Of a stretch of DNA of 21,533 nucleotides, positions 7,312 through 21,003 are shown piece after piece. Source of the stretch: a virus. The position numbers and the translations under genes are program-made. Position 1 is the first letter of the stretch; every line of letters starts with the position of its first letter. Below the pieces are notes generated by a model. It worked only from the letters and a program-made list of their open reading frames with translations. It did no database searches and was not told the DNA's origin. The stretch is from IMG/VR virus record IMGVR_UViG_3300021519_000085, positions 1-21,533 of that record; one strand, written 5' to 3'.

Positions 7312-8601
7312 TTAACCTTTATTTGCATTTATTGTATCGCTAGCTATTTGTGCTAGTTTACGATCTCCACTAGCTGCTCTATTAATTATGTCATTTTCTA
7401 TAGCAGTTTGTTCAGTTTTGGGCAAACTAGCAAAGTTGCCAAAATTTCTACTGTTCCAATCAGGACTATATGAGCCAGTAGCTAATGCACGGTTAACTGT
7501 AGCACTTAATACACGTCTGTCGTTTGTTAGTGTAGAGCGTATGCTATCGCCGTTTATTGATCGAGTATCATTAATTGTTGCTGTACGTATTCCGTTAACA
7601 TTGCCAGTAGTTCGTTGAGTAGCACCCCTAGGTGTTGGAAATATTATTTGGCCTAAACGATTAATTTGTCTACCTTCTGAACTTGCACTTAGAATTGATG
7701 TCAATATTCCTCTAGGATCCTTTCTTCCGCTAAACACATTTCTAAAAACAGAACCAATTGTGTTTAGTCCAGTATTATCATAAGGATCATATTGTGGAAT
7801 AACCACAGGCTCAATGCGTCTACCTACTGCCTCAAATCCCTGAACAGCTTCTAAGGTGTCTAGTGGACTGTGTACTTGATCATATCGTGTTTCAGAATCT
7901 GTAAACCCTACAGGCTCGTTGCCTTCTTGAATACTTCCTGTATTATAAAGTACTCCTTCGTAAGCAACAGTCATACTATTTTCCATAGTACTGTTACCGT
8001 CTTTGTATTCCATATCATCATGCCCCCATGCTGTTAAGATAGGGTTGATTAATGTGTACGAAAACCAATTTTGTCGTGCGAGTTGATATATGCGTATATG
8101 AGAAAAGAATGGACCGTTTGTTTCATTATCTAGACCATAACGCGGTACTTGGCTTCTAAATTTATCTCGTTGGCCAAAATCTACAGGTTTTCCTTTATTA
8201 TTTTTATGTCCGTCTTTAAAATAATACTTGTAATATTCTTCAAGCATTGCTCTAGTTAAACCAGTATTATCGTCATGAAATTTAACATTAATTTCATCAT
8301 AGTCAATTCTAGTCTGTACACGTTTTTTTCTATTGTATTGATTTTTAGTTTCTACTGTTGCTTTATACTTGGGTAAATCTATTGAGCTTACTAATACTCC
8401 TAGTTCCTTTCTATAAGCAGAACTATTAGCTATTTTATCTAACGGTGCAGCATATTCAAATACTACATGATACAGGAACTTAGTTTTTGGGCCGAGCGCA
8501 TGTCCGTGCTCAGTGAATAACTGCATAGCGTGTCTAGCATCTCTTAAATGCAATTCGCTATCACTATTAATTAGATATAAGTCTTGTGCGCCGATTCCCA
8601 T
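7312..8601 (-). CDS. gp19-fold baseplate/tail-tube protein (gp54- or gp48-like), 429 aa
   Basis: The N-terminal two-thirds resemble the T4 gp19 tube fold: FLYHVVFEYA (about 43-52), VSSIDLPKYKATVETKNQYN, DYDEINVKFHDD and, later, NPILTAWGHDDMEYKDG followed by MTVAYEGVLY. These are the strand pattern and hallmark wording of tube proteins. In T4 the tube-initiating baseplate proteins gp54 and gp48 share this fold, and this protein is encoded next to gp19, so a tube-initiator role is likely. The Arg/Asn/Thr-rich C-terminal 150 residues are not recognised. The length and motifs do not fit the portal gp20. There is no Shine-Dalgarno: GATAAATA (8607-8614) ends six bases before the ATG, predicting a leaderless mRNA. 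Confidence 0.75.
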   Translation of the reverse strand: MGIGAQDLYLINSDSELHLRDARHAMQLFTEHGHALGPKTKFLYHVVFEYAAPLDKIANSSAYRKELGVLVSSIDLPKYKATVETKNQYNRKKRVQTRIDYDEINVKFHDDNTGLTRAMLEEYYKYYFKDGHKNNKGKPVDFGQRDKFRSQVPRYGLDNETNGPFFSHIRIYQLARQNWFSYTLINPILTAWGHDDMEYKDGNSTMENSMTVAYEGVLYNTGSIQEGNEPVGFTDSETRYDQVHSPLDTLEAVQGFEAVGRRIEPVVIPQYDPYDNTGLNTIGSVFRNVFSGRKDPRGILTSILSASSEGRQINRLGQIIFPTPRGATQRTTGNVNGIRTATINDTRSINGDSIRSTLTNDRRVLSATVNRALATGSYSPDWNSRNFGNFASLPKTEQTAIENDIINRAASGDRKLAQIASDTINANKG

Positions 8602-8697: not shown

Positions 8698-9369
8698 TTA
8701 GAGTTGACCAGCGTTAGTGCCGCCAGTTATCTGTGTGCCGCCGTCAGCGTCTTGTGTTGCTCTGTTTGTTACTTCACCAATACCAGTTTCAACAGCACCT
8801 TCTGCACCGTATTGAATTGCGTTATCATAACGGATTGATAGTGTTACTGTTACTGGGTCGTTAGTAGCATAAGCAAGTGTGTTGTAGTTAACTGATTCTA
8901 CATAGCATCCAACTAAGTGGAATCTATCTAGAACGTTAGCGCCGCCAGCGTTGCCGTTGCCACCGTCAAGAATTTCAATTCTTGTTTGGAACTTGTAAGT
9001 ACCACCTGCGACTGCGCTTGACTGTTCAAAGAAATCAAACTGTCTTTGAATTTGCTGTCCAACGATTTTTTGTACGTTGTTATTAGCATCTTCACGTAGT
9101 GTAAGTGTAATTGGTTCCCATGTATGCTTACCAGCTAGGAATGACCTACTGTTGTAAGCATCTACTGTAATTTGTTCAAATGTTAAGTTTGGACGAGTTA
9201 CGTCTACTACCTGTCTTGAAACTTCTCTAACTCCGTCAGGTCCACCTGTGGTTCCAAAACCGTCAAGTAATACTCTAAAGCGATATTGCAGCTTTGGCAT
9301 TAACAATGAGCTGTTAGAACCGGCTCCAGCTGTTGGAATCGAAATGTTCTGTAATGTTGTGATTGGCAT
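8698..9369 (-). CDS. 19: Tail tube protein, T4 gp19-like
   Basis: gp19 hexamers stack to form the inner tail tube through which DNA passes. Length 223 aa (T4 163 aa). Seen: YRFRVLLDGFG (about 30-40), VSRQVVDVTRPNLTFEQITV, the loop AYNSRSFLAGKHTWEPITLT (about 71-90), a central helix with QQIQRQFDFFEQS, and a final strand pair NDPVTVTLSIRYDNAIQY, typical of marine gp19 proteins. The Gly/Thr-rich C-terminal tail (about 190-223) looks flexible. The start at 9369 has AGGAG upstream and a late box GATAAATA (9391-9398) giving a leader of about 16 bases. A terminator follows the gene, so it can be expressed as a single-gene transcript, fitting its high copy number. Confidence 0.93.
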   Translation of the reverse strand: MPITTLQNISIPTAGAGSNSSLLMPKLQYRFRVLLDGFGTTGGPDGVREVSRQVVDVTRPNLTFEQITVDAYNSRSFLAGKHTWEPITLTLREDANNNVQKIVGQQIQRQFDFFEQSSAVAGGTYKFQTRIEILDGGNGNAGGANVLDRFHLVGCYVESVNYNTLAYATNDPVTVTLSIRYDNAIQYGAEGAVETGIGEVTNRATQDADGGTQITGGTNAGQL

Positions 9370-9431: not shown

Positions 9432-12400
9432 TTAGCCCAGTGCTGCGATTTCGCCTGTGTTCTTAATTCTCAATGGAATGTAAATGAACTCAACTGCTTT
9501 AACAGGTTCAATAGCAATGTCTAGATATAGCTCATTACGATCAATTCTACTTGGAGTATTGTTTGACTCATCGCAAACTACCAAGTAATCGTATAGCGCA
9601 CGTAAGCTCACAAGTTCTAGGCAGAATGCATCTGCTGCTGCTTTGATCTGATCGCGTGTAATCTTATCGTTTGGTTCAAATAGGTATGGTCTTGCTAGTT
9701 TTTCTAGCTGGCCGCGCATATAAACAACTAAGCGAGCAACATTTACACGGTCTAGAGCACTTGCATTTCTTGCACGAGTCTTTTGACCAAATACAACTAA
9801 ACCAGCACCACTTAAGAATGTAATTGGATTAATTGAGTTGCTGTATAGTGTGTCACGTTGTCCAGTATTGAGTGCGATTGAAACAAATTCGCCTTCTGAA
9901 CTGATATAACCACTTGCGGTTGCATTAGTAACACCACCACGTCTTGTGCCTGCTGGAGCAAACCAGGGGAACGCAACTTGATCGTTTAGTAGTATTGTAC
10001 GCAATGCCATATGACTTGGCGGAACAACTACATTATTACCAGCATTATCGCTAGTGTATCCCCATGGGTAGTACATAGCCATGTATTCATCAAAGCTAAC
10101 AGCACCCTTGTCGTTATCTTCAACTGCGCGACGAACGTTTGCGCCCCACTCATTTAGCGATGTTGCATCAGGTGTTAGTCTTGCTGGTGTATCACCTACA
10201 ACGAACGCAGTTAAACGACGATCGTAATTTAGGGTAATCATTTCACCAATTAGTTCTGGATACCCTGGGCAAGCAATTAGGTTAAAGTAACGTGATTCTT
10301 CATCACGGATTTCTTGATTGCTGTTAACTAATGCTTGTAATGCCTGTACAACACTCTTACGCTGTGCATGGCGACCAAAAGAACCCGAACCATCTTCGTT
10401 GTTGCTTGAATCAGTTACCCAACGATGTGGGTAGTAACCGTCCATAGCTTGATCTAAATAACGTGAGTTAGTTTGATTAACATCAATATAGTTGCGCACA
10501 AAACGCTTCACGTTAAATCCGCTTCTACGTAGATTCCATAGCAACATACCTTTTGGATACAGTGCTGGGTCTGCGGCATCTGGATCTAAGTAGTTAGAAC
10601 TTAGTAGCTCGTCAATTGCACCTGCATCTAATCCGCTTGCTAAACTTCCACCATTTAGACCGTAACGTGCATCACCAAACAATACTCCATTTTCAGTTGT
10701 TTGATCCGTCTTATCAACTAATACCCATGAACCTAAAGTATCATTGTACTTGTAAATTGTTGGGAAGTTTTCAATATCAGCTGTATCAATCCATAGGTCA
10801 CCAGTAACTAGTGGATCGCCCTTTGAATTTTCTGTAGGCTGTGTTGCACCTACAATAGGACCATTTGGATCTGTATTTTCAGTACCGTCACCGTGGTCAT
10901 AGTTTAAATAACCAACCCATGAAGTACCGTTGTGGATCATAATGTCAACTTCATCAACAACTGAACTATACCATAGTTCACCGTCAGCTGTTAGGCTTAG
11001 TGGCTCGTTATTGTCAGCTGTGTATGATAGTACTCTCCAATTAGAAGCTCTAAACTCAACTGGCATTGTTGCGCCGTCTGTACCTGCTTCATATGATAAG
11101 TTTAATGTGCCTTCTGTAGAATCTACGTAAGCACCAAATCCAGCTTGTCCTAAAGCGCCGTCACTATCAACAATCTTAATATCACCGCCTAGCTTGTGAG
11201 TAATTGTTACTCTCTTTAGGCCGTCAACTGTTGCAACAACATTAATTAAACCTGCTGAATTAATAGCTCCTGCAATTGCATCAGCATCAGTTGAAGCTCC
11301 TGTAGCAGTAAATGTTACTACTGCTGGAACTAGTGCATTACCTGTGCTTCTTGGCCAAAACTTGTTATTGCCTGTTCTTGTTTCTGCAAGAGTAAATTGA
11401 TATGTGTCAGGTGTAATTTTCCCACCAGTGATTTTTGCACTTACAATACTTGTTGGGCCATTAACTGCTCTACGGAAAATTTTCCAGTCGCCCTTTTTAT
11501 TAAATGACTCTTCAACGTTGGCTTTAATATACAAGTCGCCTGCCATTAAGCCTACACCGCCACCTGTACGATTAAGCTGGTAAATTGCATCTTCAGCTGT
11601 TTGATAAACTGGAGCAACTACGCTTTCCCATAACATTGTGTCGCCGTTGTACTTTTTAACCTTAAAGTGTGCGCCACCGTTTGGTGATGTAGTTTTAAGC
11701 CATAAAGAACCTGTTGGTCTTGGAGCAGAGTTTGTTTTCTTAAATTCTGGAACATTTGTATGAGGAGCAATTGCAACTGATGGTGCATAGAATGTATCAG
11801 CAATACCCAATTCTGTAGCAAGTGCGCCACCAACTAGCAATGTATCTTCAAATGTATAAATGTGAAGTTGCCCATCTACAACCGCAGCAGTAACATTACC
11901 GCCTACCATATCGCTATTAATTTCAGCAGCAACATCGGCTATGCTATCACCAGTTGTTAATCCTGTGATATTAGTTACAGTACTGTCGCCTGCCTTAATT
12001 GTTAAAACAGTTGCAGTAATTGTTGTTGAAGGCGTAGTAGCAGCAACCACAGTTGGCCAACTAGCTTTCCATTCGTCAGAACCAACAGCTACCCAATCCC
12101 CGCTAGTTGCTTTAAACCATAGCTTGTTAGCAGTGGTTGTAGTATCAACTGCATAGTCGCCAATGGCTCCTAATGATGTTCTTGGTGTTTCTCCTGGAGT
12201 ATCGTCTACTAGTTGTGTTACATCTGAAATTGCAATTGGTGTTACTGTAGAAAAACTCTGGCCGGAATTGGCAGTTAACGCAGCACCGTTCCATTCAAGA
12301 ACGCCAAACGCTGTAACACTAGTGTCTAACCAATAAGCACCGTTTGTTGGTTCGCCACCGGGTGCAACTGACTTAGCTTCTAATTTGGTTAAGTTTAAAT

Positions 12401-12737
12401 CTGCTCTTGCAACATAAACACGGTTACTTACACCTAGTAGCGAATAAGCAGTATTTAAACCATACTCATTTAGTTCGCCGCCGTGGATCATATTTCCAAT
12501 GCTATCAGAATAGAATAAAGCATCACCAAAAGTTTCGCCTAATTCTCTCTGGCTTGTAATTAAATAAGGTTTACCAGCATTTGCCTGTAGTGTTCCTACT
12601 GCTGTTCCTGAACCACTTGCACTAGTTTTATCTTGTGCAGTGGTAATAAAAATCATTGGTACAGTGCCGGCTCCTGCGGGAGTATAAAAACTCTCATCAA
12701 TTACGGTAACTTGTACGCCTGGTGATACTAGTGCCAT
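9432..12737 (-). CDS. 18: Tail sheath protein, T4 gp18-like, with very large insertion
   Basis: The sheath contracts to drive the tube through the cell envelope. The N-terminus (MALVSPGVQVTVIDESFY) and the C-terminal part (about 685-1101: ALVNSNQEIRDEESRYFNLI, AMYYPWGYTS, VAFPWFAPAGTRRG, FLSGAGLVVFGQKTRA, IDRNELYLDIAIEPVKAVEF) are typical of T4-like sheaths. The protein has 1101 residues against 659 in T4. Residues about 120-685 form an insertion with at least six G-x-L/Y-W-x-x-T ... W modules (near 133, 193, 343, 400, 586, 647) and two stretches like the flagellin hook IN motif (about 243-312 and 470-540). These probably decorate the outer sheath surface. The start at 12737 has AGGAGG and a late box AATAAATA upstream; it is followed by an intercistronic hairpin. 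Confidence 0.95.
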   Translation of the reverse strand: MALVSPGVQVTVIDESFYTPAGAGTVPMIFITTAQDKTSASGSGTAVGTLQANAGKPYLITSQRELGETFGDALFYSDSIGNMIHGGELNEYGLNTAYSLLGVSNRVYVARADLNLTKLEAKSVAPGGEPTNGAYWLDTSVTAFGVLEWNGAALTANSGQSFSTVTPIAISDVTQLVDDTPGETPRTSLGAIGDYAVDTTTTANKLWFKATSGDWVAVGSDEWKASWPTVVAATTPSTTITATVLTIKAGDSTVTNITGLTTGDSIADVAAEINSDMVGGNVTAAVVDGQLHIYTFEDTLLVGGALATELGIADTFYAPSVAIAPHTNVPEFKKTNSAPRPTGSLWLKTTSPNGGAHFKVKKYNGDTMLWESVVAPVYQTAEDAIYQLNRTGGGVGLMAGDLYIKANVEESFNKKGDWKIFRRAVNGPTSIVSAKITGGKITPDTYQFTLAETRTGNNKFWPRSTGNALVPAVVTFTATGASTDADAIAGAINSAGLINVVATVDGLKRVTITHKLGGDIKIVDSDGALGQAGFGAYVDSTEGTLNLSYEAGTDGATMPVEFRASNWRVLSYTADNNEPLSLTADGELWYSSVVDEVDIMIHNGTSWVGYLNYDHGDGTENTDPNGPIVGATQPTENSKGDPLVTGDLWIDTADIENFPTIYKYNDTLGSWVLVDKTDQTTENGVLFGDARYGLNGGSLASGLDAGAIDELLSSNYLDPDAADPALYPKGMLLWNLRRSGFNVKRFVRNYIDVNQTNSRYLDQAMDGYYPHRWVTDSSNNEDGSGSFGRHAQRKSVVQALQALVNSNQEIRDEESRYFNLIACPGYPELIGEMITLNYDRRLTAFVVGDTPARLTPDATSLNEWGANVRRAVEDNDKGAVSFDEYMAMYYPWGYTSDNAGNNVVVPPSHMALRTILLNDQVAFPWFAPAGTRRGGVTNATASGYISSEGEFVSIALNTGQRDTLYSNSINPITFLSGAGLVVFGQKTRARNASALDRVNVARLVVYMRGQLEKLARPYLFEPNDKITRDQIKAAADAFCLELVSLRALYDYLVVCDESNNTPSRIDRNELYLDIAIEPVKAVEFIYIPLRIKNTGEIAALG

Positions 12738-12842: not shown

Positions 12843-13178
12843 ATGAGACCATTGTGCCTATGCGGCCAACGACCTGCTGCCATTAATTATAAAAAAGAAC
12901 GAAAAGTTTATTATCGTAAACTTTGTGAAGTATGTCTGCGACATGGATTGAGCCATGGCATTCCTAAATGGCGGCAGAGTGGTTACATTAAAAAAGATAC
13001 ATGTGAGAAGTGCGGCTTTAAGAGCAAGCACCAAGAACAGTTTAATGTATTTCACATAGACGGAGAATTAAACAACTGTCGTCCGTCTAACCTAAAGACA
13101 GTGTGTGCTAACTGTCAACGTATCGTGCAAAAAGAAGGTATCAAATGGAAGCAGGGAGATCTACGCCCTGATTTTTAA
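12843..13178 (+). CDS. HNH-fold zinc protein, 111 aa (conserved in T4-like marine phages)
   Basis: Small Cys-rich protein with four cysteine pairs: C5-x-C7, C28-x2-C31, C54-x2-C57 and C88-x2-C91, plus an HNH-like core FHIDGELNNCRPSNL (70-84) then KTVCANCQ. The N-terminal pairs and the treble-clef-like HNH part indicate zinc binding. In typical HNH nucleases the core reads HH ... N ... H; here the first His is F70 and the last His is Q92, so two metal ligands are changed while H71 remains. It may bind DNA without cutting. I recall nearly identical proteins annotated as HNH endonuclease in cyanophages. It is the only plus-strand gene in the left 14 kb and overlaps the 3' end of the kinase gene by 38 bases. 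GAGGT ahead of the ATG is a plausible Shine-Dalgarno; GATAAAAA (12784-12791) is a weak late-type box. Confidence 0.8.
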   Translation: MRPLCLCGQRPAAINYKKERKVYYRKLCEVCLRHGLSHGIPKWRQSGYIKKDTCEKCGFKSKHQEQFNVFHIDGELNNCRPSNLKTVCANCQRIVQKEGIKWKQGDLRPDF

Positions 13179-13671
13179 AGATAGTACGCACTAGTATTTC
13201 TACATTCTTTTTAAGTCTTGCTAAATCACCATTGTTGTCAATGGTGTAGTTACACATCCATTGTTCAATGCTCATGCTACTGGGATCTTCTTTAGGCAAG
13301 TGATCGCAACGATCTACCCAAATAGCATAATCAAAAATTTCTTCATTTTGCATTGCAAAGAACTCACGCTTGTTGCGTAAGCCGCAGTAGATATCATGTT
13401 TAGCAAACAAATTTCTACCCAGCTTGGCTAGGTCGTCACTACAATAACCATGGATCATATTGTACCATTCAGTACGATGATTATGCCTGTCATTAAAACA
13501 CTCGTCTTCATCATTATATCCATATTTGTCTTTTAGTTCATTGAAAATAAACAACTCTGAGCAGAACTTTGAACTTGATTGAAAGGTATATCCGTAATTT
13601 TGTAATAGATCGCAAACTGTATCTTTGCCGTGGCGGCCGTGACCAACGACTAATAGTTTAGGTAAACGCAT
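13141..13671 (-). CDS. 1: Deoxynucleoside monophosphate kinase, T4 gp1-like P-loop kinase
   Basis: gp1 phosphorylates dNMPs to dNDPs for phage DNA synthesis in the cytoplasm. Seen: P-loop GHGRHGKDT (residues 10-18), a Lys/Asp/Arg-rich lid-type region (about 55-75, DEDECFNDRHNHRTEWYN), and a conserved-looking IWVDRCDHLPKEDPSS (about 117-132). Length 176 aa is shorter than T4 gp1 (241 aa). It has a perfect consensus sigma70 promoter (13696-13724) and a good Shine-Dalgarno (TGGAG), unlike the structural genes around it, so it is probably expressed early. Its 3' end overlaps the convergent HNH gene by 38 bases. Alternative: another phage NMP kinase; the substrate cannot be read from the sequence. 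Confidence 0.8.
   Translation of the reverse strand: MRLPKLLVVGHGRHGKDTVCDLLQNYGYTFQSSSKFCSELFIFNELKDKYGYNDEDECFNDRHNHRTEWYNMIHGYCSDDLAKLGRNLFAKHDIYCGLRNKREFFAMQNEEIFDYAIWVDRCDHLPKEDPSSMSIEQWMCNYTIDNNGDLARLKKNVEILVRTIFKNQGVDLPASI
13227..13246. repeat. Perfect 8-bp hairpin inside kinase gene, 48 bases past the HNH stop
   Basis: CACCATTG-TTGT-CAATGGTG. On the plus strand it lies after the HNH gene but has no T-run, so termination is uncertain; it may be chance coding sequence. Confidence 0.35.
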
Positions 13672-14947: not shown

Positions 14948-16111
14948 ATGCCAAGAATATCCCTTTATAAACCAGAGCGCGGCAATGATTACGAATTCCT
15001 AGATCGACAGATTTCGGAAATGTTCACTGTTGGCGGGACTGATATTAATATACACAAATACTTAGGTCCGTTAAACCCGTCAGAGGGAGAAGCTACAGCT
15101 GATAAACCAATTTATGATGCTGTAAAAGAGACTAACATACAAGATTTGTTATTCTTAGAAAATAGAGATAGAAAGTACGATCCTGACATCTACACAATGC
15201 GAGGCATTTATAATGTACAAGATATTGACTTTAACCTAAGCCAATTTGGACTATTTTTAAGTAATGATACGTTGTTTTTAACTATCCATATTAGAGATAG
15301 TGTTAAAGCATTGGGTAGAAAAATAATGTCAGGTGATGTTATTGAACTACCACACTTAAAAGACGAGTATGCACTAAATGATTATAGCATGGCTCTTAAA
15401 AGATTTTATGTAGTTGAAGATGTTAATAGGGCCAGCGAAGGGTTTAGTCAAACTTGGTACCCACACCTGTATAGATTAAAACTAAAACAAATATACGATG
15501 GTCAAGAATATTCAGAAATATTAGATTTACCCGCAGCAGAAGGTAGCGATAAAACATTGCGTGATGTTCTCAGCACATATGAGAAAGAAATGCAGATTAA
15601 TGCTGCGGTTGTTGCCCAAGCAGAAATAGACGCTCCTAAGAGCGGATTTACCACTAGCCATTTTTATACTGTTGCTACTAACGATGATGGCACTGTATCA
15701 TTACAAACTGCTGACGAAACTGCAATTGATGCTAGCAACATTAGTACCAGTACAGACGAGATTGTTAATCGTCCTGCAAGAGAAGGATATTCTGGATACT
15801 TGTTAAATTACGGTGATAGCAGTACACCTAATGCTGCTCCATACGGGTTTGGTATACAATTTCCTAGAAATCCATATGAAGGCGATTATTTTTTAAGAAC
15901 AGATTACTTGCCTAATAGAATGTTCCGCTTTGACGGAACACGTTGGTTGAAAGTTAAAGATGATGTAAGAATGACTTTGAGTAACACATTAGACAGATAT
16001 ACACAAAAAACATCGTTTATTAATAACACCAATACTAATAATATTGACGGTCAAGTCGTTCCTGAAAGACAATCGTTGTCGCAGGCACTTAAACCAAAGG
16101 CAGATAATTAA
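14948..16111 (+). CDS. 14: gp14-like neck protein, 387 aa
   Basis: The start at 14948 (MPRISLYKPERGNDYEFLDR) is chosen over an in-frame ATG at 14924 because the upstream stretch contains the late box GATAAATA and no ribosome binding site; the predicted transcription start is the A of this ATG. The pattern of the first 190 residues (YEFLDRQISEMFTVGGTDIN, FLENRDRKYDPDIY, NLSQFGLFLSNDTLFLTI, GDVIELPHLKDEYALN, FSQTWYPHLYRLKLK) is that of marine T4-like neck proteins of the gp14 group. T4 gp14 has 256 aa, so the C-terminus is extended. The extension holds YEGDYFLRTDYLPNRMFRFD followed by GTRWLKV, the same kind of module seen in the sheath insertion. It overlaps the next gene by one base (TAATG). 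Confidence 0.7.
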   Translation: MPRISLYKPERGNDYEFLDRQISEMFTVGGTDINIHKYLGPLNPSEGEATADKPIYDAVKETNIQDLLFLENRDRKYDPDIYTMRGIYNVQDIDFNLSQFGLFLSNDTLFLTIHIRDSVKALGRKIMSGDVIELPHLKDEYALNDYSMALKRFYVVEDVNRASEGFSQTWYPHLYRLKLKQIYDGQEYSEILDLPAAEGSDKTLRDVLSTYEKEMQINAAVVAQAEIDAPKSGFTTSHFYTVATNDDGTVSLQTADETAIDASNISTSTDEIVNRPAREGYSGYLLNYGDSSTPNAAPYGFGIQFPRNPYEGDYFLRTDYLPNRMFRFDGTRWLKVKDDVRMTLSNTLDRYTQKTSFINNTNTNNIDGQVVPERQSLSQALKPKADN

Positions 16112-17535
16112 TGCAACATTTTTACGATGGTCAAGTAAGACGTTATATTACTCAGCTGATGAGAATAGTCAGCAACTTTCCTGTTAAGGATGGTAAGGGG
16201 AAGCAAACAACTGTACCTGTAATGTATGGTGATTTAACTAGACAAGTATCTAATATAATTCGTGAGAATAGTGAAAATAAATTGCCCAGTGCTCCGCGTA
16301 TGGCTGTTTATATTACAGCATTGGAATTAGATAAGGATCGTTTAACTGACTCAACCTATACTCGTTCAGTTAATATTAGAGAACGTTCATTTGATACAGC
16401 AACAGGCGAGTATCAAAATAGTCAAGGTCCTAACTATACTGTTGAAAGATTAATACCTACTCCATATATGATGCGAGCCAATGTAGATATATGGACCAGT
16501 AATACTGATCAAAAATTACAAATATTAGAACAATTACTAGTGTTGTTTAATCCTAGTTTAGAAATTCAAACAACTGATAATTTTATTGACTGGACTAGCA
16601 TTACTGTTGTTAACTTAGAAAGTGTACAGTTTACTAATCGTAGTATACCTGTAGGTGTCGAATCAGAAATAGATATTGCTACACTGACTTTTAGCATACC
16701 CATTTATATTAGTCCGCCTAGTAAAGTTAAAAAGATGGGTGTTATCACCAACGTTATTACTTCTATGTTTGATGAAACTAGAGGAACTATTGAGGACGGA
16801 GTAAGTGCTCCAGAAGTTAATGCGTATGACGACTTTGCAGTACCTGGTTCAATTGGTAACGAGTTTGGTAAGAAAGCTGCAACGGCCTTAACTGATAAAA
16901 TGGCCAATGTTAACTATAACACATATGGTGTATATGTTGAAGGTACAACTGCTAAACTTATTAGCAAGGGTACAATAGGATCAAAGAACTGGCGAGAAAT
17001 TTTTGAAGCACTACCGGGAAATTATGTTGCTGATGTAAGCAGGATATATCTAACCAATTTAGATAGCGATGTAACTATAACAGGAACAGTGAGTCTTAAT
17101 CCATTTGATGAAGGTGTTATTGCTGTAAATTGGGATGCTGATAGTTTCCCTCAAGACACTATTATTTCTAGTAGTATAGCTAGCAGAACCAGCATTGATT
17201 ATATCATTGACCCAACAAGATTTGATCCTAGATCTATTAAAGCTTCTGGAATTAGAATCTTATTATTAGAAGATGTAGGCAACGAAGATGCTGTTGAAAA
17301 CTCTGTAGCATGGCGTAATAATGACGGTAGCGGATTGGTTGCTAGTGCTAATGATATTGTAGAGTGGGATGGTTCTAAATGGAATATCATCTTTGCTTCA
17401 AATACAATAACAGAAGTTACGTATATCACTAATTTAAATACTGGTGTTCAGTATAGATTTACTAACGGTAGTTGGTTAAAGAGTGTAGACGGTGAATATC
17501 CAATAGGCGCTTGGAGGTTTGACCTCTACGGATAA
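16111..17535 (+). CDS. 15: Tail terminator / sheath stabiliser, T4 gp15-like, 474 aa
   Basis: gp15 caps the tail and joins it to the head neck. The T4 pattern is visible: FYDGQVRRYITQLMRIVSNF at the start (T4 FYNSSFRRYATLMGDLFSN), VPVMYGD, PRMAVYITALELD, RLIPTPYMMRANVDIWT, LQILEQLLVLFNPSLEIQ (T4 MFQIVEQILPYFQPHFN) and a PP motif at ISPPSKVK. T4 gp15 is 272 aa; here about 200 extra residues follow (from about 205), with a W-x-G-S-x-W and LNTGVQYRFTNGSWLK segment like the modules of the sheath insertion. It starts inside the stop codon of gp14, so the two neck/tail-completion proteins are translationally coupled. Confidence 0.82.
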   Translation: MQHFYDGQVRRYITQLMRIVSNFPVKDGKGKQTTVPVMYGDLTRQVSNIIRENSENKLPSAPRMAVYITALELDKDRLTDSTYTRSVNIRERSFDTATGEYQNSQGPNYTVERLIPTPYMMRANVDIWTSNTDQKLQILEQLLVLFNPSLEIQTTDNFIDWTSITVVNLESVQFTNRSIPVGVESEIDIATLTFSIPIYISPPSKVKKMGVITNVITSMFDETRGTIEDGVSAPEVNAYDDFAVPGSIGNEFGKKAATALTDKMANVNYNTYGVYVEGTTAKLISKGTIGSKNWREIFEALPGNYVADVSRIYLTNLDSDVTITGTVSLNPFDEGVIAVNWDADSFPQDTIISSSIASRTSIDYIIDPTRFDPRSIKASGIRILLLEDVGNEDAVENSVAWRNNDGSGLVASANDIVEWDGSKWNIIFASNTITEVTYITNLNTGVQYRFTNGSWLKSVDGEYPIGAWRFDLYG

Positions 17536-17543: not shown

Positions 17544-17981
17544 ATGCATGATATTAACTGTAGTGGTGCCTTATTTTATACCCTGAATACTCGTAGATTT
17601 TTATTCTTGTATCGTAAGAACGGAAAACGTTCTAACCAATGGGGTATAGTTGGCGGAACCAATGAAGGTGTTGAAACTCCATGGGAAGGGTTACAACGTG
17701 AAATTACTGAAGAAATTGGTTCCATCCCTGAAACAATTAAAACAATTCCCTTAGAAACTTTTATTTCTTCTGATGAAAAGTTTCATTTTCACACGTATCT
17801 GTGTATCATTAAAGATGAGTTTATTCCAAAATTAAACGATGAACACGACGGCTATGCATGGGTAGGATACCAAAACTGGCCTAAGCCATTACATCGCGGA
17901 TTGCGTAATACTCTAACCAGTAGAATAAATCGTGCCAAATTAGAAACTGTGTTGCGTTTAGCAGATTTACTTGACCAATAA
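17544..17981 (+). CDS. Nudix hydrolase, 145 aa
   Basis: Nudix enzymes cleave nucleoside diphosphates linked to another moiety; the substrate here is unknown. The Nudix box G-x5-E-x7-REUxEExGU is complete at residues 38-60 apart from Ser at the last position: G38, E44, R52-E53, E56-E57, G59. A hydrophobic N-terminal strand with LYRKNGKRSNQWGIVGG precedes it. The protein has the compact length usual for MutT-type proteins. It could sanitise damaged nucleotides, degrade signalling nucleotides such as ADP-ribose or Ap4A, or act on nucleotide sugars; the heptose operon next door makes the last worth considering, but there is no direct evidence. No Shine-Dalgarno is apparent. Confidence 0.85.
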   Translation: MHDINCSGALFYTLNTRRFLFLYRKNGKRSNQWGIVGGTNEGVETPWEGLQREITEEIGSIPETIKTIPLETFISSDEKFHFHTYLCIIKDEFIPKLNDEHDGYAWVGYQNWPKPLHRGLRNTLTSRINRAKLETVLRLADLLDQ

Positions 17982-18005: not shown

Positions 18006-19151
18006 ATGACTAGAGTAGCTGTTCTTGGCGATATTATCATCGACCGTTATATATATGGTACAGCAGAGCGACTAAGCCCTGAAGCACCGGTACCTATTGT
18101 TCGGCATCAAACTACATTTGATCGTAGCGGTGGCGCAGGCAATCTTTACGAGAATCTAAAGAGTTTAGGCGTTGATGTTGACCTATTAGATTTTAGTAGT
18201 CCAAAATGTATTAAAACTCGTGTGTTCTGCGATGGACATTATGTTACACGCATAGATCAGGACCATGCTACAGACGGTATGGATGTGTTAACAGCAGTTG
18301 AAAAAATTGATTTTTCACATTATGAATATGTTGTGCTCAGTGACTATGCAAAAGGAGTGCTAGATCAATCTACTAATATTATTAAACATATTAACCAGTA
18401 TGATTGTAAAGTAATTGTAGACCCAAAAAAACCTGCAAGCTATTATGAAGGTGCATGGTTGGTAAAACCTAATATGAAAGAAAATACTGAATATGGATTT
18501 TCTAGTTGGCCTACTAATTGGATTGTTACTGATTCTAAAAATGCCGTTAGCGCACGTATTGATGGCGTAAGTTATAAAGTACAACCTAAACAGGTTGAAG
18601 TCAATGATGTTACAGGTGCAGGTGATTGTTTCTTAGCAGCTTTTGTATATGCTCTAACTAAAGGCTATAACTATGAAAAATGTATTAGAATTGCAACTGC
18701 TGCATCAACAGAATCTGTAAAACACACCGGCACCTACGTTTTAAAACTTTCAGATGTTGAGGAAACTGTTGTTTTTACTAATGGGTGTTTTGATATTTTA
18801 CATACTGGTCATTTAGAACTATTAAAGTATGCAAAGACTCTAGGTAGTACACTGGTTGTAGGTGTTAATAGTGATGCTAGCGTTAAACGGTTAAAGGGTA
18901 ACAATCGTCCTATTAATAGTGAAATAACTAGGGCTCATCAATTAAATGCGCTACCGTGGGTTGACGAAGTTATTATATTTGACAATGAATCTCCTTATAG
19001 TTTAATTAAAAGTTTGCAACCTAACATAATAGTTAAGGGCGGAGATTATACTGTAGAACAAGTAGTAGGACATGATTTAGCAAATGTCGTTATCTTTCCT
19101 ACAATAGAAGGACATTCTACAACTAAAATTATAGAGGCAACACAAAAATGA
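18006..19151 (+). CDS. hldE: Bifunctional heptose kinase/adenylyltransferase HldE (RfaE)
   Basis: HldE phosphorylates D-glycero-beta-D-manno-heptose 7-phosphate at C1 and later adenylylates heptose 1-phosphate to ADP-D,D-heptose. Seen: N-terminal ribokinase/PfkB domain with GDIIIDRYIYGTAERLSPEA, SGGAGN (41-46) and the anion-hole motif DVTGAGDCF (201-209, catalytic base D207). The C-terminal cytidylyltransferase-like domain has FTNGCFDILHTGHLELLKYA (HxGH at 266-269), VVGVNSDASVKRLKG and EGHSTTKII (368-376). It has 381 aa against 477 in E. coli, with both catalytic domains kept and the linker and loops trimmed. It is the first gene of an overlapping operon (its stop overlaps the hldD ATG), and is driven by a near-consensus promoter with no ribosome binding site. 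Confidence 0.93.
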   Translation: MTRVAVLGDIIIDRYIYGTAERLSPEAPVPIVRHQTTFDRSGGAGNLYENLKSLGVDVDLLDFSSPKCIKTRVFCDGHYVTRIDQDHATDGMDVLTAVEKIDFSHYEYVVLSDYAKGVLDQSTNIIKHINQYDCKVIVDPKKPASYYEGAWLVKPNMKENTEYGFSSWPTNWIVTDSKNAVSARIDGVSYKVQPKQVEVNDVTGAGDCFLAAFVYALTKGYNYEKCIRIATAASTESVKHTGTYVLKLSDVEETVVFTNGCFDILHTGHLELLKYAKTLGSTLVVGVNSDASVKRLKGNNRPINSEITRAHQLNALPWVDEVIIFDNESPYSLIKSLQPNIIVKGGDYTVEQVVGHDLANVVIFPTIEGHSTTKIIEATQK

Positions 19152-19966
19152 AAATATTAGTTACAGGTAGTAACGGATTTATTGGACAAAATCTTGCACG
19201 ATATCTAACAACACAAGGACACCAAGTAGAAGGCTGGGAGTACATTCCTAATACGCTTCCTGATCCCAGCGGATATGACTGGGTAGTTCATCTAGGTGCG
19301 ATTAGTTCAACTACATTCATAGACGTTGACAAAATTATAGAACAAAATTATGAATATAGTATGCAATTACTGCAACTATGCGATACCATGGGTGTTAATT
19401 TTCAATATGCATCTAGTGCTAGTGTATATGGGCCAACTACACACTTTACAGAAGACGGCCCCTTACAACCACAAAGTCCGTATGCATGGACCAAATATTT
19501 GTTTGATAGATTTATTACATTAAACTTAGAGTTCTTTGATATTAAAGTTCAAGGGTTCCGCTATTTTAATGTATATGGCCCATTAGAGGAACATAAGGGC
19601 GAGCAAGCTAGTCCTTATACAAAATTTACTAAACAAGCAAAAGAAAATCGTGTTATTAAATTGTTTGAAGGTAGTAAAGAGTTTAAAAGAGATTTTGTAT
19701 CTGTTGATGACGTGTGCAAAGTACATGAAAAAATGTTTGATTCAGTACAAAAGGGAATTTTTAATGTTGGAACAGGGCAAGCTGTTAGCTTTGATGAAGT
19801 AGCTCAAACTATTGCTCAAAAATATAATGCTGCTGTTGAATATGTTCCTGTTCCAGAAAATCTTAAAAGTCAATATCAGACCTATACTTGTGCAAATCTA
19901 ACAAAATTAAATAATACAATAGACATGCAATGGACACATATAAAGGATTACATCAATGACAACTAG
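19148..19966 (+). CDS. hldD: ADP-L-glycero-D-manno-heptose 6-epimerase HldD (RfaD)
   Basis: HldD converts ADP-D-glycero-D-manno-heptose to ADP-L-glycero-D-manno-heptose, the donor for the LPS inner core. Seen: Rossmann motif GSNGFIG (7-13), NYEYSMQLL, YASSASVYG (87-95), active-site Y112-x3-K116, GFRYFNVYGP (136-145), EEHKG, KLFEGSKEFKRDFVSVDDV (171-189), GIFNVGTG and EYVPVPENLKSQYQTYT. The wording follows E. coli HldD closely (E. coli has FRYFNVYGP, KLFEGSENFKRDFV and YIPFPDKLKGRYQA). Length 272 aa against 310. The ATG overlaps the hldE stop by four bases and the stop overlaps the cupin start, indicating one mRNA. Confidence 0.95.
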   Translation: MKILVTGSNGFIGQNLARYLTTQGHQVEGWEYIPNTLPDPSGYDWVVHLGAISSTTFIDVDKIIEQNYEYSMQLLQLCDTMGVNFQYASSASVYGPTTHFTEDGPLQPQSPYAWTKYLFDRFITLNLEFFDIKVQGFRYFNVYGPLEEHKGEQASPYTKFTKQAKENRVIKLFEGSKEFKRDFVSVDDVCKVHEKMFDSVQKGIFNVGTGQAVSFDEVAQTIAQKYNAAVEYVPVPENLKSQYQTYTCANLTKLNNTIDMQWTHIKDYINDN

Positions 19967-20351
19967 ACAAAGTGGAGTAGTACGCAAAGGCTGGGGTTAC
20001 GAATTAATTTGGGCAACCAACGACAAGTACTGTGGAAAGATTATGGTATTTGAAAAAGCAGGTGCAAAGTTCAGCATGCATTTTCATAAAGATAAAGATG
20101 AAACATGGTTTGTAAACAGCGGAAAGTTTAAGCTGCGGTGGATTGATACTAATACTGCTACTATCTACGAGAAGGATCTAGCAGAAGGTGAAACTTGGCA
20201 CAATCCACCATTACAGCCGCATCAATTAGAAGCATTAGAAGATAATAGCTCACTAACCGAAGTTAGTACTGCTGATAGTGTGGAAGATAATTATAGGTTG
20301 CTGCCTGGTGATAGTCAAGCAGTAGAACTTGTAGAAGATACCAATGAGTGA
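19956..20351 (+). CDS. Small cupin-fold protein in the heptose operon, 131 aa
   Basis: A one-domain cupin with the full metal set: G36-x5-H42-x-H44-x4-E49-x6-G56 and, in the second motif, G78 ... P84 ... H89. The K-GWGYE-like start and the motif order resemble the phosphomannose-isomerase-type cupin at the C-terminus of ManC and stand-alone sugar-processing cupins. Its substrate is unknown. Because it sits between hldD and gmhB, overlapping both, it probably acts on a sugar phosphate of the pathway; a GmhA-like isomerase role is one hypothesis, since no GmhA is visible. Overlap of 11 bases with hldD and 8 bases with gmhB. Confidence 0.8.
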   Translation: MTTRQSGVVRKGWGYELIWATNDKYCGKIMVFEKAGAKFSMHFHKDKDETWFVNSGKFKLRWIDTNTATIYEKDLAEGETWHNPPLQPHQLEALEDNSSLTEVSTADSVEDNYRLLPGDSQAVELVEDTNE

Positions 20352-21003
20352 AGTTTATCGTTGGGGTCAACCTAATACCGCAGTTGTTGAGCAACCGGTA
20401 TATCAGGACTATATGCAGCGTCCTGATTATATTGCTCCTAAGTGTGTAGTTGGGCTAGATCGCGATGGTGTTATCAATAAAGACTTAGGAACCTACTGTT
20501 GGAAAATTTCTGACTTTAGCCCTATTCCTGGTAGTCTAGAAGCAATTGCTAGGATCAGGCGACTCGGTCATAAGGTTGCTGTTATTACAAATCAAGGAGG
20601 AATAGAAAAAAAACTGTTTACTCCTAATGATGTAGATGCGTTACATCAGCATATGCTTAACCTATTAGGTGCTGCAGGGTGTCCTAGTATTGATGCTATC
20701 TATTACAGTGCTAGCGGGCGCAAAGATGACGAGTTTGCTAAACCCAATACAGGCATGTTCAAACGTTGTGAAAAAGAACATGCTTGGAAAAAATTAAAGT
20801 TTGCAGACGGCTATTATGTTGGTGACAAAATAAGTGATCTTAAAGCTGCCCATAAGGTTAATGCAATCCCTATTCTAGTGCGTACAGGATATGGTAAAGA
20901 AACAGAACAAGAATTAAACCGGTTCGCTTATAAAGAAATAAAAAAACGTACCAAAATTTTTGATACGCTTTTAGATTTTGCTGTTTGGCTAGAAAATAAT
21001 TAA
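20344..21003 (+). CDS. gmhB: Heptose 1,7-bisphosphate 7-phosphatase GmhB-like (HAD family)
   Basis: GmhB removes the 7-phosphate from D-glycero-D-manno-heptose 1,7-bisphosphate, between the two HldE steps. HAD motifs: GLDRDGVIN (37-45; nucleophile D39, acid/base D41), VITNQGGI (80-87), KPNTGMF (133-139), YVGDKISDLKAA (158-169; D161, D165). The order and wording follow E. coli GmhB. Two differences: an N-terminal extension of about 30 residues, and loss of the four-Cys/His zinc loop before KPNTGM (here YYSASGRKDDEFAKP has no Cys). This places it with the Zn-free members or gives it altered substrate choice. 219 aa against 191. It ends head-to-head with the minus-strand gene at 21000. Confidence 0.85.
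   Translation: MSEVYRWGQPNTAVVEQPVYQDYMQRPDYIAPKCVVGLDRDGVINKDLGTYCWKISDFSPIPGSLEAIARIRRLGHKVAVITNQGGIEKKLFTPNDVDALHQHMLNLLGAAGCPSIDAIYYSASGRKDDEFAKPNTGMFKRCEKEHAWKKLKFADGYYVGDKISDLKAAHKVNAIPILVRTGYGKETEQELNRFAYKEIKKRTKIFDTLLDFAVWLENN

Follow-up and report, generated by a model that had tools for sequence, protein, structure and literature searches.

Large, multidomain tail sheath proteins are already known, both from published models and from structure databases. A study from 2022 presented models for 112 sheath proteins, including the type 3 sheath of Atu_ph07 (1086 aa, five or more domains) and that of SCTP-2 (955 aa, four domains) (PMC9230969), and BFVD contains a 1037-aa fold match over the full length together with annotated sheaths of up to 1492 aa. 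A conserved core assembled from the N- and C-termini is common to flagellin and sheath proteins, and the additional sheath domains, often Ig-like, lie on the outside and away from the tube in the models (PMC9230969). Adhesion or virion stability has been put forward as their role, and the split sheath core has been likened to flagellin, in a context that does not name flagellin-like additional domains (PMC9230969). Our searches of an open-licence literature library returned no report of a tail sheath with flagellin-like or IN domains.

Here, we describe gp18, the tail sheath protein encoded in a 21,533-nt stretch of viral DNA (IMG/VR record IMGVR_UViG_3300021519_000085, positions 1 to 21,533; hereafter the window). 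Its nearest isolated counterparts are the sheaths of Atu_ph07 (Agrobacterium) and Phosso (Sinorhizobium, 1091 aa), which resemble gp18 in size, in their tryptophan-containing (W) hairpins and in the flagellin-like IN domain at site 1, with cores 53–55% identical to that of gp18. The sheaths of the RaK2/121Q group and PA5oct (879–888 aa) have hairpins C, E and F alignable with those of gp18, and the 121Q and PA5oct cores are 46–53% identical to the gp18 core; unlike gp18, these sheaths are without IN1 and have a different or unassigned domain at site 2. T4 gp18 (659 aa) is likewise a contractile sheath and has the C-terminal core in common with gp18 here, but it gives no profile match to residues 560–760 of the latter, and neither a W hairpin nor an IN domain can be detected in it. 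The solved sheath of PhiTE (9cba, 9cb9) is a chain of about 450–465 residues with a single match of this kind, its residues 84–179 superposing on IN2 (Z 7.1–7.8); outside the common sheath parts it is, as tested, unrelated to gp18. Finally, the D2 domains of the Vibrio cholerae flagellins FlaA–D, as well as FliD, have the same fold as the predicted IN1. In gp18, by contrast, a sheath core replaces the flagellin core, and there is no role in flagellar export or filaments.

The sheath gene and its split core

The window carries a T4-like structural block, and the best isolated relatives of its terminase (55% identity), gp14 and gp15 are found in PA5oct, Atu_ph07, Phosso and similar jumbo phages. 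Within this block, gp18 matches the tail sheath family phrog_10581 over its full length (E 5.1e-233; residues 1–1095 on profile positions 2–913 of 915) and contains the C-terminal sheath domain PF17482 (54.4 bits, cut-off 26.9). The subtilisin-like sheath domain PF04984 scores 21.5 bits, below its cut-off of 31.4, which none of eight scanned relatives reaches either (two of them score 15.1 and 18.6 bits); PF04984 thus has no diagnostic value in this group. A preliminary description of the window, made from the DNA letters and open reading frames, had noted the length of gp18 (1101 aa against 659 aa in T4) and a modular insertion at 10680–12380. The reading frame bears out the length, and the region corresponds exactly to residues 120–686.

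At least 599 IMG/VR stretches encode a relative of gp18, and 80 were retained. Loci L034, L043 and L072 were excluded from the sheath set and the incomplete L004 and L022 stand outside the counts, giving 75 complete sheath relatives and, after removal of those at least 93% alike, 53 non-redundant rows. The Salicola sheath, used as a query, found no viral contigs. All 75 complete relatives are of similar size (1061–1126 aa), which rules out a chimeric or misassembled reading frame and shows that the insert is real rather than an assembly artefact.

The core of gp18 is split between the two termini, with at least three domains in the protein as a whole, as in multidomain type 3 sheaths (Table 1). 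Its C-terminal part matches T4 gp18 clearly (profile probability 99.7, E 1e-26), and residues ~990–1081 of the predicted model align structurally with solved sheaths at a Z of up to 10.7. Residues 1–115 give a weak profile match to residues 1–83 of T4 gp18 (probability 31). Against isolated jumbo phages, identity is 38–59% over residues 1–115 and 40–55% over residues 691–1101, and drops to 22–32% in the insert.

AlphaFold2, run with 55 aligned sequences, models residues 131–580 with a mean confidence per ten residues of mostly 80–95, and residues 581–690 with 57–87. Since core residues 775–996 have a pLDDT below 50, this model does not show reliably where the insert sits on the core. The insert contains no cysteine, and an enzyme domain was ruled out, as no such family matched. 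Structural matches listed for the predicted insert include flagellar ones over residues 229–318 and 428–567. The prediction is not of one continuous sheath domain without repeats, and the modular character proposed earlier is supported.

Table 1. Features of gp18, gp14 and gp15, with positions in the window
Feature	Residues	Positions	Strand	Basis
gp18, tail sheath protein		9432..12737	-	ORF, 1101 aa; phrog_10581; PF17482
N-terminal sheath core	1–115	12393..12737	-	Identity to isolated jumbo-phage sheaths; T4 gp18 profile
Insert	116–690	10668..12392	-	Identity drop relative to core; mostly good-confidence prediction
W hairpin A	124–152	12282..12368	-	GAYWLDT; predicted strands 135–138, 146–149; link to E, probability 62
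W hairpin B (weak)	184–218	12084..12188	-	GDYAVDT; predicted strands 195–198, 203–209, 215–217; profile weak
IN1, flagellin-D2-like domain	229–319	11781..12053	-	Superposition on flagellins; Flagellin_IN below cut-off
W hairpin C	334–373	11619..11738	-	GSLWLKT; predicted strands 345–348, 360–364, 369–373; link to F, probability 91
W hairpin D (weak)	391–424	11466..11567	-	GDLYIKA; predicted strands 402–406, 417–423
IN2, second flagellin/FliD-like domain	428–567	11037..11456	-	Superposition on FliD and PhiTE sheath; profile match to IN1
W hairpin E	577–610	10908..11009	-	GELWYSS; predicted strands 588–590, 598–602, 607–609; links to A, probability 62, and C, probability 41
W hairpin F	637–674	10716..10829	-	GDLWIDT; predicted strands 648–651, 660–665, 670–675; link to C, probability 91
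C-terminal sheath core	691–1101	9435..10667	-	T4 gp18 profile; superposition on solved sheaths
gp14, single W hairpin	311–350 (ORF)	15854..15973	+	GDYFLRTD...FRFDGTRW; profile match to sheath E/F/C
gp15, W-containing strands	397–457	17299..17481	+	Predicted strands; block pLDDT 66–92 over 391–460

Two observations concern the neighbours of gp18. Just beyond its start, on the opposite strand, lies a small HNH-like ORF (12843–13178, +; 18.4 bits, cut-off 21.4), possibly a homing endonuclease, which overlaps the end of the ORF at 13141–13671. On the other side are two adjacent tail-tube-like genes (7312–8601 and 8698–9369, both -), each matching phrog_4542, the longer of which has an additional C-terminal part of about 200 residues.

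W hairpins in the sheath and neck proteins

The insert had been described as holding at least six modules of the form G-x-L/Y-W-x-x-T. Repeated modules are indeed present, but not as six strict copies: G-x-[LY]-W-x-x-T occurs three times (at residues 133, 343 and 646), a number that none of 2000 shuffled inserts reached (mean 0.016). The looser pattern G-x-[LYAFW]-[WY] occurs five times, as it does or more in 2 of 2000 shuffles. AlphaFold2 places strands at all six of the sites chosen (A–F). In profile comparisons, hairpin C is linked to F and, with lower probability, A and C to E (Table 1). Hairpins B and D are weakly linked, the D–F pair reaching a probability of 31 in one comparison and 2 in another.

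Leave-one-out tests gave a mixed picture. HMMs built without a given hairpin failed to find it again: A scored 2.1 bits, B -0.9 and F 4.6, and C, D and E fell outside the best 12 matches listed. Neither gp14 nor gp15 appeared among the best matches of these HMMs. With ungapped leave-one-out scoring matrices, each module ranked first or second against 6429 other positions, at sites that had been preselected by motif. In comparison with shuffled inserts, F and A alone stood out as clearly rare (0 and 9 of 300), with the other four modules reached in 44–82 of 300. Profiles and predicted strands taken together make about five or six W hairpin units in gp18 plausible. Beyond the IMG/VR group, hairpins C, E and F can be aligned in 12 of 14 rows (Atu_ph07, Phosso, locus L090, PA5oct, SCTP-2, Vibrio 2.275.O and six RaK2-type phages), the two rows where they cannot being the XacN1 and RAS14 sheaths.

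Related modules had also been proposed at the C-termini of gp14 and gp15. For gp14 this stands with modest support: a unit similar to the sheath W hairpins appears once near its C-terminus, and the homologues from Atu_ph07, Phosso and PA5oct conserve it. The profile of this gp14 hairpin matches sheath hairpins E, F and C with probabilities of 21, 14 and 7 (D, below 1), compared with at most 1.2 and 0.9 in two gp14 control sets. When segments of gp14 and gp15 (49–61 residues) were compared with the whole insert using hhalign, nothing was found (best probability 1.04). By eye, the gp14 homologue of 121Q (L182:289–1485) seems to carry two or three C-terminal W hairpins. For gp15 the proposal lacks profile support, the best match to a sheath module having a probability of 14.5 over eight columns (a short W stretch), where an unrelated control pair reached 8.3. 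Strands are predicted with good confidence over gp15 residues ~350–455. Residues 1–207 superpose on T4 gp15 (Z 13.3), and structural matches of gp15 cover residues 4–217.

A hairpin on the gp14 neck protein similar to those of the sheath is one of the points in favour of a docking role, in which the insert would anchor appendages along the side of the tail. A possible example is the hairy fibres of phAPEC6, whose sheath carries fibres at three annular positions and, at 97 kDa, is of a size order like that of the 121Q sheath (887 aa) (PMC7247149). We consider this improbable: every ring of a helical sheath presents an identical site, yet the phAPEC6 fibres are found at three levels only, and no fibre partner was identified for gp18.

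Downstream of these genes, a Nudix hydrolase gene (17544–17981, +) lies directly 3′ of gp15 and is followed by a gene set for ADP-heptose synthesis (18006–21003, +), comprising an HldE-like protein, an HldD-like epimerase, a cupin and a GmhB-like phosphatase, with all matches below equivalog cut-offs. The HldE-like kinase/adenylyltransferase fusion is 381 aa long, its kinase half being shorter than the family model.

Flagellin-like domains and their sites

Two stretches of the insert had been likened to the flagellin IN motif, and both the predicted fold and the relatives of gp18 agree with this. In the predicted model, IN1 superposes on the Vibrio cholerae flagellins with Z 11.1–11.6 (88–89 residues, rmsd 1.8–2.2, 25–32% identity), the best superposition having Z 11.6 over 88 residues with an rmsd of 1.8. 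A further superposition of IN1, on Salmonella FliD, has Z 8.9. Modelled IN2 superposes on Helicobacter pylori FliD (Z 8.4, 100 residues, rmsd 2.4) and, over 88 residues, on the PhiTE sheath (Z 7.8). A Z-score near 8 may reflect a common arrangement, which makes IN1 the firm case, while the assignment of IN2 draws in addition on profile similarity between the two domains. By this comparison (probability 81, E 1.2e-5; best pair with a control segment, 4.9), IN1 and IN2 are repeats of each other.

The earlier proposal fared less well against the Flagellin_IN family itself (PF07196), with gp18 scoring 16.2 bits at residues 245–291 and the IN1 segment alone 17.9 bits, both below the curated cut-off of 22.7. 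The IN2 segment of gp18 gave no match. Two of eight scanned relatives pass the cut-off (31.9 and 28.4 bits), and in a selection of 14 IN1 and 12 IN2 segments from the 55 alignment rows, four and three segments, respectively, match at E of 1 or below. We therefore describe the predicted IN fold as resembling flagellin D2 and do not assign gp18 to the Flagellin_IN family. Single-sequence searches of the PDB returned no flagellar match for either domain. In PDB profile searches, IN2 yielded nothing relevant, and for IN1 the SUN-domain protein SUN1 (E 5e-4) ranked above flagellins (E 0.07–2); we take the SUN-domain relation to be a chance match.

The sites of these domains differ between lineages. 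All 53 IMG/VR rows have IN domains at sites 1 and 2, and in each of them hairpins A and B are joined by a short link (26–34 residues). Atu_ph07, Phosso and locus L090 have IN domains at sites 0 and 1, with IN0 inside a long segment between hairpins A and B and site 2 empty (6 residues); gp18 shows the opposite pattern, in that site 0 is without an IN domain and site 2 has one. IN0 matches IN1 of the IMG/VR group with a probability of 97 (E 1.3e-10; best control pair, 4.9). In the other 11 isolated phages compared, site 1 is empty or short (0–24 residues) and site 2 holds 94–139 residues. Compared with IN1 and IN2, the domains found at site 2 in PA5oct, the 121Q/RaK2 group, SCTP-2, Vibrio 2.275.O and XacN1 reach a probability of at most 14, and their identity as IN domains is unsupported. 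The presence of one domain family at different sites is consistent with gain and loss, and the sequence comparisons fit a process in which IN domains have been gained and lost site by site among jumbo phages. It is also conceivable, though we give the idea little weight, that the D2/FliD-like domains are transposable tail surface parts, added, lost or moved between fixed hairpin sites. Sheath and hairpin-bearing neck would then share one surface lattice, which perhaps mimics bacterial flagella in appearance or in binding behaviour.

Possible roles of the insert

Across the 53 IMG/VR rows, median identity to gp18 is 50% in the insert and 82% in the core. The insert is 536–596 residues long in every row, with constant module order and length. 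Among the 15 closest of 1001 pairs, dN/dS is 0.09–0.36 in the insert and 0.06–0.15 in the core, the insert being higher in 14 of the 15. The insert thus evolves faster than the core, yet is under purifying selection.

We propose that gp18 is an ordinary contractile sheath with an enlarged, outward-facing insertion, a reading that we regard as evenly poised between right and wrong. In this proposal, the small W hairpins would be a scaffold kept by much of this jumbo-phage group, with flagellin-D2/FliD-like domains inserted between them. The insert would face outward on each sheath ring and form a coat, whose main task may be stabilising or covering the sheath in its extended state; it would have no part in gripping the tail tube. 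An outward position is in line with the published models that place additional sheath domains off the tube (PMC9230969). A structural role accounts slightly better than rapidly changing receptor binding for the fixed order and length of the modules and for the purifying selection.

The higher evolutionary rate of the insert also speaks for an adhesion coat, where the many sheath copies would display flagellin-like domains and hairpins that bind glycans of the host surface weakly and multivalently. Help in adhesion is among the roles proposed for additional sheath domains (PMC9230969). We think this rather unlikely, since the dN/dS values given above for the closest pairs reveal no diversifying selection across the insert, and modules and their order are fixed in all rows. 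Moreover, no carbohydrate-binding family was found in the insert with confidence, the one hint being a weak CBM_X2 match (E 0.035) in one of 14 IN1 segments.

The additional domains of T4 are described as non-essential for sheath formation (PMC9230969), which counts against a stabilising coat. The same observation, together with sheath size tracking genome size (PMC9230969) and with the variation of IN sites between lineages, would suit largely neutral growth, by which the insert gathered tolerated domains that have no specific task. Purifying selection on the insert and an architecture constant in 53 of 53 rows argue against this, and we consider it very improbable.

To large multidomain sheaths, which were known already, gp18 adds flagellin-like domains, their repeats and their changing sites. 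The result is a part list for one large sheath insert, of a class earlier described as additional domains only, in which two parts have the predicted fold of flagellar surface domains and occupy differing sites in related phages. With single, named deletions, the purpose of large sheath inserts becomes testable domain by domain.
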